13,091 bases of DNA, from positions 1 through 13,091 of the forward strand of contig CANRCH010000038.1 of assembly GCA_947629065.1 (NCBI GenBank). The letters are read 5' to 3'. The stretch comes from an uncultured Aliarcobacter sp. (GTDB lineage Bacteria; Campylobacterota; Campylobacteria; Campylobacterales; Arcobacteraceae). The position numbers and the translations under genes are program-made. Below the pieces are notes generated by a model, which was not told where the DNA came from, made no database searches, and was given only the letters and a program-made list of their open reading frames with translations. Shown here one piece after another: positions 9,040 to 11,985 of this stretch (positions within the stretch are counted from its first letter, which is position 1; each line of letters begins with the position of its first letter).

Positions 9040-10077
9040 TTAAGAGACAATAATATCTGAATATGATTTTGGAATTACTTCTCCAATAATCTTTGCATAT
9101 CCAAAACTTAACTCTTCAAGCTCTTTTATATACTCTTTTGCATCATCTTTATTCATAGCAATTAGTAATCCACCAGATGTTTGTGCATCACACAATATTG
9201 CTTTACAATGTTCTGGTAAATCTTTTAAATATGTAACTTTATCTTCACAAAACTTCATATTTTTCTTTGTTCCACCTGGAATTACACCTTCAAGTGCCAA
9301 AGGTAAAGCATCTTCTAAGATGGGAACTTCACTACAAAATATATTAAATGAAATAAGCTCATTTATACACTCAGAGGCGTGTCCTAAAAGCCCAAAACCT
9401 GTAATATCTGTACAAGAGTTTACTCTATATTTTCTCATTATTTTTGATGGCAAATAGTTTAGACTAGCCATTATATTTGCACACTCTTTAATACTTGAAA
9501 TATCCAATAAATCTCTTTTTATAGCTGTTGTTAAAACTCCAAGCCCTAAAGGTTTTGTAAGAACTAAAACATCTCCAATTTTTGCACCATTATTTCTAAT
9601 TATATCTTTTGGATGAATAGTTCCTGTTACACTTAATCCATAATACATCTCAGGTGATTCAATAGTATGTCCACCAAGAAGTGCTCCACCACACTCTTTG
9701 ATTTTTTCAAAACCACCTCTTAGAATTTCACCTAAAGCTTCAGATGATAGGTTCTTTTTATCAAAACCTACAATATTAAGTGCTGTTTTAACAACAGCTC
9801 CCATAGCAAAAACATCACTAAGTGAGTTTGCAGCAGCTATTTGCCCATAAATATATGGATCATCAATAACAGGTGTTATAAAATCAAGAGTTTGCACAAG
9901 TGCTAAATCATCACTTATTTTATAAACCCCAGCATCATCGCTTGTATCAAATCCAATTAAAACTTGTTCATTACTACTATTTATTTTGCAAAGTGTCTGT
10001 TTTAGGTCCGCCGAACCCATCTTTGCAGCTCAACCAGCAGCTTGAACAAACTTTGTTAGTTTGTATTCGTTATTCAT
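9040..10077 (-). CDS. selD: Selenide, water dikinase, selenocysteine-containing (UGA read-through)
   Basis: Makes selenophosphate from selenide and ATP, the selenium donor for selenocysteine and selenouridine. The frame from ATG 10077-10075 runs to TAA 9042-9040 through an in-frame TGA at 10030-10032 and gives 345 residues. The start reads MNNEYKLTKFVQAAG-U16-AAK. U16 and K19 have the same spacing as catalytic C17 and K20 of E. coli SelD (GCGCK). Other family residues are present: D48 in SDDAGVY, D65 in LDFITP, D88 in SLSDVFAMG, GGHT (135-138), D224 in TDITGFGLLGH, and DAQTSGG. A start at the inner ATG 10018-10020 would lose the catalytic Sec and Lys. A weak AGAGAAAG precedes the true ATG. 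A SECIS-like hairpin follows the UGA. The gene is single and convergent with the transporter. Selenocysteine insertion genes must lie elsewhere (inference). Confidence 0.95.
9988..10032 (-). promoter_or_regulatory. Bacterial SECIS element of selD
   Basis: On the minus strand, after UGA 10032-10030, a lower stem pairs GCAAAG (10026-10021) with CTTTGC (9993-9988). An upper stem pairs GGGUUC (10018-10013) with GGACCU (10009-10004), including two G-U pairs, around loop GGC (10012-10010). If the top two pairs open, the loop is UCGGCGG. The apical loop starts with G and lies about 18 nt after the UGA, as known bacterial SECIS elements require for SelB binding. The codons in this stretch (TCG GCG GAC) are unusually GC-rich for the window, which suggests RNA-level selection. 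Confidence 0.75.
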
Positions 10078-10104
10078 TCTTTCTCTTTTTTAAAATAATC
10101 ATTT

Positions 10105-10110
10105 ATTATA
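10105..10110 (-). promoter_or_regulatory. -10 box of selD
   Basis: The minus strand reads TATAAT from 10110 to 10105, within TTTTGTATAAT. Transcription would start near 10098, about 21 nt before the ATG at 10077. This independently supports the upstream start, since the inner ATG would have a needlessly long leader that is itself coding. No clear -35 box is seen. Confidence 0.5.
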
Positions 10111-10182
10111 CAAAATCAATATTAAAAAAGTATAAAATAAAAGTAAATAATTTTTTACCTTTAAGATATTGCTTAGATTATT

Positions 10183-10188
10183 TATACT
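10183..10188 (+). promoter_or_regulatory. -10 box of the transglutaminase/MerT/MerP operon
   Basis: TATACT at 10183-10188 is a one-mismatch -10 box in a T-rich setting. Transcription would start near 10195, placing the first stem of the structured leader (10207) about 12 nt from the RNA 5' end, as in many riboswitch leaders. No convincing -35 box is present. Confidence 0.45.
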
Positions 10189-10206
10189 AGGATATTAGCC
10201 TAATTA

Positions 10207-10290
10207 GTTCACAGTCCATAGGTTATGGATAGACATAAAGAGGAACAATTTTATCTTTATATCTGACCCCTGAACGAAATAATATAAAGA
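10207..10290 (+). promoter_or_regulatory. Structured 5' leader, candidate translational riboswitch (class unassigned)
   Basis: The leader folds by eye as a three-way junction. P1 pairs GTTCA (10207-10211) with TGAAC (10271-10275) and may continue as CAG (10212-10214) with CTG (10263-10265), bulging ACCCC. P2 pairs TCCATA (10215-10220) with TATGGA (10224-10229) around GGT. P3 pairs ATAAAGA (10235-10241) with TCTTTAT (10254-10260) around a 12-nt loop. TCTTTATAT (10254-10262) is also perfectly complementary to ATATAAAGA (10282-10290), which holds most of the ribosome site AAAGAG (10286-10291) before ATG 10298. P3 and this blocking helix cannot coexist. L2 GGT could pair with ACC (10266-10268). 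I recognise no known aptamer consensus. A/T richness makes chance pairing a real concern. Confidence 0.5.
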
Positions 10291-10297
10291 GAAAAAA

Positions 10298-11392
10298 ATG
10301 GAGAGAAGAACTTTTTTAAAATCTACGGCAGCACTTACAACTTTAGCAGTGCTAACACCAAATCTTGCATTTGCAAATGAATCAAAAAACCCTTTTGGAA
10401 TTACAAAAACACCAAGAAAATTTAGTGTAAAAAATAGCTATATTTTTGAGAAAAGTGATGAAGTAACTCAAGCTTGGATTCCACTTCCAAAAGAGATTGA
10501 CTTTCAAAAAATTTCAAATTTAGAGTATAAAGGCGATTATACTGAAGCAAAAATTGTAAAAAATCCTTACGATAGCGATGTTTTATATGTAAAATGGGAC
10601 AAAATAGAAAAAGAGGCTAAATTAGATTTAGAGTTTAGTGTAGTAACTCAAGAAAGAACTACAAATTTTGAACTTGCAAAAAATAACAAAAACTATAGTG
10701 ATGAAGTAAAGCAATATCTTGAAGGAACAAAACATATTCCAGTGACTCCTAAATTACAAGATTTTGCAAAAGATATTATAAAAGATGCAAAAACTGATTT
10801 AGAAAAAGCAAAAGCTATATATGAGTGGACTGTAAGTACTATGTATAGAGATGAGAGTGTTATTGGATGTGGAATTGGAGATGCACAAAAATCTATTGAA
10901 GAGAAGATTTTTGGTGGAAAGTGTACAGATATAAGTTCTGTTTTTGTTTGCCTTTTAAGAAATGCAAATATTCCAGCAAGAGAGCTTTTTGGAATTAGAT
11001 TAGGTCAATCAAAAATATCAAATGCTTGTGGAAAAGCCGATGATAAAGGTTTTGCAGATATTACAGGAGCACAACACTGTAGAGCAGAATTTTATATAGA
11101 TGGTCTTGGATGGGTAGGAGCAGATCCAGCTGATGTTGCAAAAGTAAAATTAGCAGAAGATTTAAAAGCGAATGATAAAAAACTTTTAGATGTAAAAGAG
11201 TATTTCTTTGGATCTTGGGAGATGAACTGGGTTGGATTTAATAGTGCTAGAGATTTTGTACTAAATCCAAAACCTACACAATATCCTTTAAATATGCTAG
11301 GTTATCCTTATGCAGAAGTTGGCGAAGATGCAAAGGATTATTACAATCCAAAAACATTTACATATACATATAGTTCCCAAGAAGTTTTATGA
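10298..11392 (+). CDS. Tat-exported transglutaminase-like protein
   Basis: A 364-residue protein of the transglutaminase-like (papain-fold) superfamily, exported folded by the Tat system. The signal peptide starts MERRTFLKS with the twin-arginine motif RRTFLK (3-8), a hydrophobic stretch (10-24) and likely cleavage after AFA (24-26). A beta-rich N-terminal domain spans about 40-120 and the catalytic-type domain about 150-290. It has a full Cys-His-Asp triad: C209 in GGKCTDISSVFVCLLR, H260 in AQHCRAEF and D276 in GWVGADPADV. Bacterial members are often proteases or peptide-modifying enzymes rather than crosslinkers, so the substrate is unknown. The mature region has several more cysteines (191, 218, 244, 261), which fits a redox or metal link but does not prove one. 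The stop overlaps the MerT-like start by 4 nt (ATGA), so the two are translationally coupled. Expression is probably controlled by the structured leader upstream. Confidence 0.85.
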   Translation: MERRTFLKSTAALTTLAVLTPNLAFANESKNPFGITKTPRKFSVKNSYIFEKSDEVTQAWIPLPKEIDFQKISNLEYKGDYTEAKIVKNPYDSDVLYVKWDKIEKEAKLDLEFSVVTQERTTNFELAKNNKNYSDEVKQYLEGTKHIPVTPKLQDFAKDIIKDAKTDLEKAKAIYEWTVSTMYRDESVIGCGIGDAQKSIEEKIFGGKCTDISSVFVCLLRNANIPARELFGIRLGQSKISNACGKADDKGFADITGAQHCRAEFYIDGLGWVGADPADVAKVKLAEDLKANDKKLLDVKEYFFGSWEMNWVGFNSARDFVLNPKPTQYPLNMLGYPYAEVGEDAKDYYNPKTFTYTYSSQEVL

Positions 11393-11718
11393 GAAAATCA
11401 AGATTTGCGATAATTGGTGCAGTTTTAACTGCCCTTTTATCCACACTTTGTTGTTTACCAGCATTTTTATTTCTTTTTTTTGGATTTTCAAGTGGATTTT
11501 TGAGCTATTTTACAAGTTTGGAATATACAAGAGTTCCACTAGCACTTATTTCAATAATCTCTTTTTTAATCTATTTATATAGTATAAAAAACTCTAGTTC
11601 GAGCTGTGATATTAATAAAAAAACAAGAAGAAAAAGATATATATTTGCAACTGTTTTTTTCTTAATATTACTAGGATTAATATTTTATCCTGAGATAATC
11701 CCACTTTTTATGGAGTAG
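11389..11718 (+). CDS. MerT-like inner-membrane metal transport protein
   Basis: A 109-residue, three-helix membrane protein resembling mercuric transport protein MerT. Helix 1 (about 6-27) holds the vicinal cysteine pair C21-C22 followed by L-P, where MerT has its mercury-passing Cys-Cys. Further hydrophobic segments lie at about 27-40/50-66 and 87-104. The loop after helix 2 has only one cysteine, in SSSSCD, where classical MerT has a second pair, so the relay is incomplete compared with Tn501 MerT. It overlaps the transglutaminase gene by 4 nt and sits 3 nt before a MerP-like gene, the usual MerT-MerP partnership. No mercuric reductase or MerR gene is in the window. Mercury is thus not assured as the substrate, and copper or another thiophilic metal is possible. 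Confidence 0.75.
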   Translation: MRKSRFAIIGAVLTALLSTLCCLPAFLFLFFGFSSGFLSYFTSLEYTRVPLALISIISFLIYLYSIKNSSSSCDINKKTRRKRYIFATVFFLILLGLIFYPEIIPLFME

Positions 11719-11721
11719 TTT

Positions 11722-11985
11722 ATGAGAATTATATTTCTATTTTTTGTTTTGGTAAATTTTGTTTTTGCAAGTGAAACTTCAAAATTTAAGGTTGAAGGGA
11801 TGCACTGTCCACTTTGTACAACAGCTGTAAAAAAAGCTATTACAAAACTTGATGGAGTAGAAAAAGTTAGTGCTAGACTTAATACAAAAGAGGTAAGTGT
11901 AACTTATGATGAAAAAAAAGTTGATATAGAAAAAATTCTTGAAGCTATTAAAACAACATCTTATGAGGGAAAATTAATAGATTAA
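11722..11985 (+). CDS. MerP-like periplasmic heavy-metal-binding protein (HMA domain)
   Basis: An 87-residue protein with a signal peptide (1-16, cleavage after VFA) and one heavy-metal-associated domain (about 20-85). The metal site is GMHCPLC (26-32) with C29 and C32 in a C-x-x-C loop, followed by the expected helix TTAVKKAITKL and a beta-alpha-beta-beta-alpha-beta pattern. Its size and architecture match periplasmic MerP, which hands metal to MerT. The Pro-Leu between the cysteines differs from the more common CxxC loops of MerP and CopZ. It lies 3 nt after the MerT-like gene and is probably co-transcribed from 10183. Metal identity cannot be read from sequence; Hg(II), Cu(I) and Zn(II) are all seen in this fold. 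Confidence 0.88.
   Translation: MRIIFLFFVLVNFVFASETSKFKVEGMHCPLCTTAVKKAITKLDGVEKVSARLNTKEVSVTYDEKKVDIEKILEAIKTTSYEGKLID

Follow-up and report, generated by a model that had tools for sequence, protein, structure and literature searches.

A three-way-junction leader RNA tied to selenium genes in Aliarcobacter and its relatives

A compact leader RNA with a conserved three-way junction was detected by covariance searches in 62 copies, distributed over 59 genomes, 14 genera and three families, and it probably acts in cis, setting the translation of genes for selenium acquisition according to selenium status. The stretch of DNA analysed (hereafter the window) has 13,091 nucleotides and is contig C38 of an assembly of an uncultured Aliarcobacter sp. 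that is 87.8% complete (GCA_947629065.1, contig CANRCH010000038.1). A candidate new riboswitch controlling a transglutaminase-MerT-MerP operon had been proposed here from the letters alone (the original prediction), and the features of the window are collected in Table 1.

Table 1. Positions of the leader, its parts and the neighbouring genes in the window
Feature	Position	Strand	Remarks
Conserved leader element, entire (covariance-model match)	10202..10278	+	R1 75.9 bits, 2.7e-12; R2 72.8 bits, 1.2e-10
P1 5′ strand, GUUC	10207..10210	+	partner 10272-10275; alternative partner GAAC of the P3 tip, 10243-10246
P1 3′ strand, GAAC	10272..10275	+	covariation
P2 hairpin, 7 bp, triloop GGU 10221-10223	10214..10230 (10214-10220/10224-10230)	+	covariation, SECIS comparison
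P3	10232..10263	+	10232-10233/10262-10263, mismatch 10234/10261, 10235-10241/10254-10260
P3 variable tip, contains GAAC 10243-10246	10242-10253	+	
J3/1	10264..10271	+	site-pairing strand in relatives (CUCUUAAUA and others); window copy (UGACCCCU) diverged
AUAUAAAGA, complement of 10254-10262	10282..10290	+	second pairing option in the window copy; duplex energy -8.3 kcal/mol, z -1.68
Shine-Dalgarno-like AAAGAGA	10286..10292	+	weak anti-16S duplex, -2.9 kcal/mol
Candidate -10 box TATACT	10183..10188	+	scan at chance level; in register with genus relatives
Upstream palindrome GTAAA-N6-TTTAC, then TTTAAG	10143..10165	+	candidate operator or promoter element
selD, selenophosphate synthetase, divergent	9040..10077	-	in-frame UGA (Sec) 10030-10032; 5′ limit is the ATG complement 10075-10077
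First gene, Tat-signal transglutaminase-like protein	10298..11392	+	PF01841
MerT-like membrane protein	11389..11718	+	PF02411; NF045683 (MerT/CopZ fusion-like selenoprotein) below cut-off
MerP/CopZ-like HMA protein, CPLC motif	11722..11985	+	PF00403; NF041115 (UxxU metal-binding (seleno)protein) below cut-off

Structure and conservation of the junction

All the pairings listed in the original prediction exist at the coordinates given for them, namely GTTCA/TGAAC (10207-10211/10271-10275), TCCATA/TATGGA (10215-10220/10224-10229) and ATAAAGA/TCTTTAT (10235-10241/10254-10260), and the sequence likewise contains the ATAAAGA repeat (10235-10241 and 10284-10290), the 9-nt complement (10254-10262/10282-10290) and the GAAC at 10243-10246. 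The three-way junction is real, with covariation in P1, P2 and P3, and only its limits were refined: the conserved P1 has 4 bp, P2 has 7 bp, and P3 is longer at the base, where G10232-C10263 and A10233-U10262 extend the stem across the C10234/A10261 mismatch. Folded alone, the window gave z values of -1.69 (10200-10280), -1.40 (10202-10300) and -0.74 (coding start included), which are unremarkable as thermodynamics, so this leader is noteworthy because of the comparison with its relatives, from which the window copy diverges in J3/1 and in the P3 tip.

Among the 31 genomes of the genus, the product of the first gene was matched in 28 (E 0.001), with 24 true orthologs; the gene lies in two pieces on separate contigs in G017 and runs off the contig in G024. 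The element precedes the operon in 24 of the 24 genus leaders examined, about 20-30 nt before the start, and throughout them it keeps its place between the promoter and the start codon, with the pattern AGUUC(n)AGA-CCAUAGGUUAUGG-UUUGACAUAAAG...CUUUAUCUCUUAAUA-GAAC. From the 24 homologous leaders, P1, P2 and P3 were recovered unaided by RNAalifold.

Alignments A4 (50 rows) and A5 (31 copies), unlike A1, had been aligned to the model and are to that extent biased towards the structure. With this reservation, 97.3% of 923 cells were paired in the 50 copies (49 distinct), and the covariation score was 0.229 against 0.079 after shuffling, with none of 500 shuffles as high and with versions of the pairing that were slid along reaching at most 0.046. 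For the 31 diverse copies, comprising one copy each from 29 of 31 chosen loci and two from L062, both sides had changed in 11 of 19 pairs, 95.4% of the cells were paired and the score was 0.375 against 0.143 in shuffled alignments; in the same copies the number of pair types was not above the shuffles (225/500), and four P3 pairs depart by unpaired cells only. P1 changes from GUUC/GAAC to GCAU/AUGC (UA to CG, UA to AU and CG to UA), and P2 shows changes on both sides in five of its seven pairs (four of seven in the 50 copies), its stems reading CCAUA, GCAUA, CCUAA, CCCAA or CUCAA, each with a matching 3′ strand. The covariance check proposed with the original prediction thus found compensatory changes in P1, P2 and P3, and stems that are conserved. 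The P2 loop and the P3 base (GA, mismatch, AUAAA / UUUAU, UC) hold the conserved sequence, whereas the junction strands vary in length and sequence. Of 60 copies, 57 have GGU or GGC as the P2 triloop (the script had placed four stems wrongly, and these were corrected by eye), and the rest are AGUU (twice) and GUU (once); a conserved G-U pair is present in 41 of the 49 distinct copies.

It is most improbable that this conservation belongs to a DNA operator, with the palindrome CCATA-N3-TATGG serving a transcription factor instead of an RNA. P2 is a perfect inverted repeat and a second palindrome, GTAAA-N-TTTAC, lies upstream, as such an operator would have it, but the strands of P1 covary though about 65 nt apart, the conserved G-U pair becomes an A-C mismatch on the opposite strand, and the element stays between promoter and start codon within the genus. 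A DNA palindrome only is largely refuted by the covariation of P1.

The upstream GTAAA-N-TTTAC palindrome, followed by TTTAAG, was observed before the candidate -10 box in most copies and in all three gene classes described below, and is absent from L101-L103. A strict form of the pattern occurs eight times in six whole genomes, four of them at leader or selD promoters, and is near chance genome-wide, as the backward control pattern occurs five times; it is possibly the operator of a regulator. A scan of the window gave five promoter-like sites against 3.6 by chance, among them TATACT at 10183-10188, which aligns in position with the genus relatives and makes the transcript start assumed by the original prediction plausible.

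No match at gathering score was found in the window with Rfam 15. When 10100-10400 (to E 10) and the relatives L011, L021 and L007 (to E 5) were searched by E-value, only weak matches far below the gathering scores appeared, and one of them, overlapping the leader of the window, is to a plant-type microRNA model (E 8.6); a known Rfam class is excluded, there being no match at gathering score. The claim that the leader matches no known riboswitch holds against the Rfam models. Stem conservation, covariation and the lack of identity with a known Rfam element, the points on which the original prediction had offered itself to refutation, all came out in its favour.

Distribution and association with selenium genes

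Model R1 matched in 48 of the 104 genomes of the family. Model R2 added G055, G056, G058, G059, G061 and G085 within the family and G389, G380 and G243 outside it, with 39 of 398 genomes of the order matching (two judged chance), and a further set, in which six of 175 genomes match (two judged chance), added G491 and G492. Since Infernal's stricter filters were on during the searches, some copies were likely missed. Named records carrying the element are Arcobacter vandammei, Arcobacter caeni, Poseidonibacter lekithochrous, P. ostreae and Sulfurospirillum arcachonense. Out of 31 pattern-matched sequences, 18 reach E 0.001 with R2 and may overlap the 62 copies, and the other 13 miss this threshold. 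Counts over 60 copies omit the true copies L004 and L021, which are included in the totals of 62 and 40 and in the analysis of P1 and the P3 tip. A reverse-strand match (L002 1422-1483) was left out, L080, which is outside A4, was counted in the 62 by eye, and L081, L090, G026:C1:727826, L104, L105, L149 and L150, being weak and without fitting genes, were judged chance.

The genes and genomes point to selenium. A divergent, adjacent selD was found for 45 of 60 copies by motif and for two more by coordinates (L069, L079); ten other copies have selD on the same contig, at most about 12 kb away, L101 and L102 have it on a different contig, and for the L146 copy no selD was found in the 92%-complete assembly of G492. 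With R1, the leader is present in 48 of 73 selD-positive and in none of 31 selD-negative family genomes (Fisher p 2e-11, ignoring kinship), and within the genus in 24 of 25 versus none of six, two of the six being only 54% and 76% complete. R2 raises the count to 54 of the 73 selD-positive family genomes, leaving 19 of 73 in which the covariance search, run with the stricter filters, detected no copy. SelB exceeds its cut-off in 70 of the 104 family genomes and in 46 of the 48 that harbor the element, being split in G095 and not found in G096. MnmH was absent from nine of 11 genomes tested, including all six Arcobacteraceae, and found in two, and therefore selenium in the Arcobacteraceae tested appears to go to selenocysteine. 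The genomic evidence thus points to selenium in place of the metal, thiol or envelope signal guessed before.

One member of the genus, G027, has selD and SelB and lacks both the leader and the transglutaminase operon. The active site of selD carries an in-frame UGA in the window and many relatives, and TGT or TGC in others, and because this varies even within the genus, the Sec and Cys versions of selD interchange.

Three classes of genes stand behind the 62 leaders: transglutaminase-MerT-MerP in 40, a PhnD-like ABC operon in 19 (L102, L146 and L147 showing the first part of the operon only) and a formate dehydrogenase operon in three, with four copies left unclassified by the script placed in the transglutaminase class on a separate reading of their loci. 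The one binding protein tested from the ABC class (class 3), that of L072, scored 365.7 bits on TIGR04553 (cut-off 250), a model named 'putative selenate ABC transporter substrate-binding protein'. Under the same leader, the transglutaminase and ABC operons are swapped even inside genus g9 (L106 and L108 versus L109-L111). The gene beside L066, L067 and L108 is presumably yedF, read from a motif of its product. In the window, MerT and MerP are above the Pfam cut-offs, and their best NCBIfam matches are mercury and copper models, all below cut-off. The scores of NF045683 and NF041115 in 11389-11985, also below cut-off, hint that this transporter family may handle selenium, not mercury.

Formate dehydrogenase homologs (E 1e-100) were obtained in 24 of 25 genomes, most with one TGA. 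G014, G003 and G030 each possess one TGA and one Cys formate dehydrogenase, and the leader stands only before the Cys copy. In L062, L063 and L064 a duplicated leader was observed before a Cys-type formate dehydrogenase operon adjoining selD, with the Sec-type enzyme elsewhere. These class-2 leaders offer a weak clue to the direction of control, because they come from a single genus and are worn, G31 being U in all three and L064 lacking two of the four P1 pairs. Upstream of two formate dehydrogenases without TGA (G056:C1:1354278-1357061 and G079:C1:966091-968892), no leader match was found at E 1 (L144, L145).

This confinement to selenium genes and selD-positive genomes, together with the replacement of operons under one leader, is hard to explain if the leader served another RNA-binding factor or a tRNA, or only stabilised the message or aided translation start as a structural 5′ element with no sensor, and a selenium-linked role is therefore favoured. 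Such a reading is unlikely, and no T-box or other known leader appears among the Rfam matches, although the variable junction strands, the short leader and the absence of a known ligand would agree with it.

Alternative pairings around the ribosome site

The mechanism that we propose, in which selenium status would be the signal, has an RNA of about 75 nt with constant P2 and P3 hairpins alternating between two states. In the open state, P1 would close the three-way junction and leave the ribosome site free; in the closed state, J3/1 would pair with the Shine-Dalgarno region, a part played in most GCAU-type copies by the UUCAAA after P1, and the P1 5′ strand would perhaps be held by the P3 tip. 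The window operon would serve selenium acquisition, and the genes would be off when selenium is sufficient.

Forcing the junction raised the predicted probability that the site is unpaired from 0.29 to 0.57, and it was higher in 45 of 48 copies (48 of the 50 A4 rows), a gain that is partly automatic because the constraints remove pairing partners. When J3/1 and the spacer were shuffled with stems and site kept, the openness rose from 0.245 to 0.458, with the native sequence lower in 24 of 30; no closing beyond this control was predicted for the window, L015, L016, L069, L079 and L082 (n=30). The duplex of J3/1 with the site was better for own than for swapped strands among 21 representatives (permutation p 0.022), and over 60 copies the mean z was -0.80 and own strands beat the mean of swapped ones in 37 of 60; these duplexes are weak in g9, g17 and g4. 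Lowest-energy full folds of L020, L066, L101 and L103 keep P2, lack P1 and close the site via J3/1, with P3 rearranged too in L066. Most GCAU-type copies can pair the UUCAAA that follows P1 with UUGAGG (read by eye), and L083 has this pairing in its centroid fold. For most relatives a closed ribosome site is accordingly predicted unless the junction forms, and the competition between junction and site supposed at the outset is thus predicted there.

The particular lock that had been suggested, pairing of the 3′ strand of P3 with the ribosome site over 9 nt, fared differently. The complement is present, but its closing function is not borne out: the window site is predicted to be 97% unpaired (0.97 open with native junction and spacer versus 0.89 shuffled), so the 9-nt lock is probably not the mechanism in the window copy. 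The lock predicted in relatives is formed by J3/1 or by the nucleotides that follow P1 directly, and as a general mechanism the 9-nt pairing is ruled out by the site-openness predictions and the shuffle control.

The original prediction also paired GTTC of P1 with GAAC in the P3 loop. Within alignment A1 the window copy alone has an exact GAAC in its P3 loop, and the tips of relatives read GAGCU, GAACU, GGGCU, GAGUU or GAAUU. In GUUC-type copies, 20 of 39 tips make five pairs with AGUUC and one of 39 with AGCAU; shuffled tips give a mean of 3.2, and none of 1000 shuffles is as high, a comparison that ignores kinship. Eight of the 23 GCAU-type copies have at least four pairs to their own P1 strand, which is not significant (90/1000 shuffles as high), and 16 of the 23 tips reach four pairs with AGUUC, a foreign P1 strand. 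Over 24 representatives the P1 5′ strand fits the P3 tip better within a copy than when swapped (permutation p 0.006). This analysis used 62 copies, with loop borders cut by rule and the L063 loop set by hand, and its numbers overstate the evidence because the genus copies are related. The alternative pairing is therefore upheld for GUUC-type relatives, as AGUUC with GAGCU or GAACU, and not for the GCAU type as a group; if real, it would make the P1 5′ strand common to the junction and the P3 tip.

Candidate sensors and comparison with known systems

Two hallmarks of riboswitches are present in the leader, namely a covarying conserved structure and a recurrent tie to one pathway (selenium genes, in 14 genera of three families). 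Our first choice for the sensor is a small selenium compound bound by the RNA itself, the alternative being a protein such as SelB; the small ligand is preferred because SelB binding alone needs neither P1 nor P3. As a tentative model, which might well prove wrong, the leader could represent the first class of selenium-metabolite riboswitches (e.g., for selenophosphate or selenite), governing alternative selenium-uptake systems in Campylobacterota. P2 would lie beside the P3 base with the GGU loop docking on P3, and the ligand would set the partner of the P1 5′ strand, junction or P3 tip, by which the ribosome site would be opened or locked. The matching lengths of P2 (7 bp) and the conserved part of P3 (8 bp) suggest side-by-side packing. 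The variable junction strands, unusual for a small-ligand pocket, count against a small ligand. Moreover, the junction is predicted to be the on state, so a selenium ligand stabilising it would activate, contrary to the selenium repression that is expected because uptake genes and the Cys isoform follow such logic. A UGA at J2/3 was rejected as a signal for Sec or for tRNA reading, its first base being U, G or A and absent in some copies.

The bacterial SECIS (bSECIS) is described as a hairpin of 5/6 bp with an invariant G in the loop (PMC4607533). P2 resembles it as a short hairpin with a G in each of 60 loops, in genomes that make selenocysteine, and its loop usually starts with GG, as do most loops of the selD and fdhA SECIS hairpins of the group. 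Unlike bSECIS, the leader 10207-10290 lies outside plus-strand ORFs of at least 60 aa, has no in-frame UGA ahead, and embeds its hairpin in a junction. In 2002, Thanbichler and Boeck reportedly found a SECIS-like element in the 5′ leader of E. coli selAB through which SelB mediates selenium-dependent repression of translation; both are 5′ leaders, yet the one described here has other genes and another architecture, and SelB binding to it is hypothetical.

That our leader is a SECIS-like switch of this kind, in which SelB with GTP and Sec-tRNA would bind P2 in selenium plenty and repress translation with no small ligand, is somewhat doubtful, since it gives no reason for the conservation of P1 or of the P3 base with its 1x1 mismatch. 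The near-fixed loop on a variable P2 stem does speak for SelB, as do the SECIS stretches of SelD in the same genome group, with triloops GGC or GGG in seven of nine (two of the nine having TGT, not TGA), and the FdhA SECIS loops, which are mostly the five-base GGUGU, GGGGU or GGAGU; repression in selenium plenty would also suit the Cys-type formate dehydrogenase and the uptake genes. The frequent presence of SelB in family genomes with the element agrees with it too, but any selenium regulator would show the same co-occurrence, and no complete SelB turned up in G096, G491 and G492, whose assemblies are each incomplete or fragmented. Element genomes without SelB were set aside as a test between riboswitch and SelB, the assemblies of G491 and G492 being fragmented and G491 carrying, on the same contig, a selD with in-frame TGA.

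For the preferred small-ligand reading, the nearest likeness is to three-way-junction translational riboswitches, which share a covarying junction upstream of the ribosome site, a strand masking the Shine-Dalgarno region (predicted here for most copies) and a position before the transport genes of one pathway; our leader differs in having no Rfam match, poorly conserved junction strands and a putative ligand. No selenium riboswitch was found among the listings and abstract openings covered by a literature search of 5.39 million open-access papers. Stav et al. (2019) screened the intergenic RNAs of Arcobacter sp. L and gave no names to motifs confined to a genus, according to the main text (PMC6429828), in which 'selenium', 'selD', 'transglutaminase' and 'formate dehydrogenase' do not occur; the present leader spans three families, in contrast to such motifs, and possibly overlaps one of them.

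In Methanococcus, scarcity of selenium is reported to raise Cys isoforms and several putative transporters (PMC5322559, PMC11097638), and FdhA itself to have no Cys isoform (PMC11097638). The Cys formate dehydrogenase behind our leader resembles this Cys-isoform response as outlined there, with the difference that HrsM / LysR_Se is a protein regulator of transcription in archaea and the regulator here a leader RNA. The selenium regulatory network is called not clear in PMC5322559, where a LysR-type regulator is proposed.

The leader looks like an unrecorded switch that adjusts selenium uptake to supply. If the sensor proved to be SelB, SECIS-type control of translation start would have a second, independent case beside the one reported for E. 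coli selAB. Bacterial selenium sensing is largely open, and a leader this compact and conserved, linked to selD and selenium transporters, opens the question to direct tests in vitro. The transglutaminase-MerT-MerP operon, otherwise read as mercury-related, is predicted to be a selenium-acquisition system, interchangeable with a putative selenate ABC transporter.
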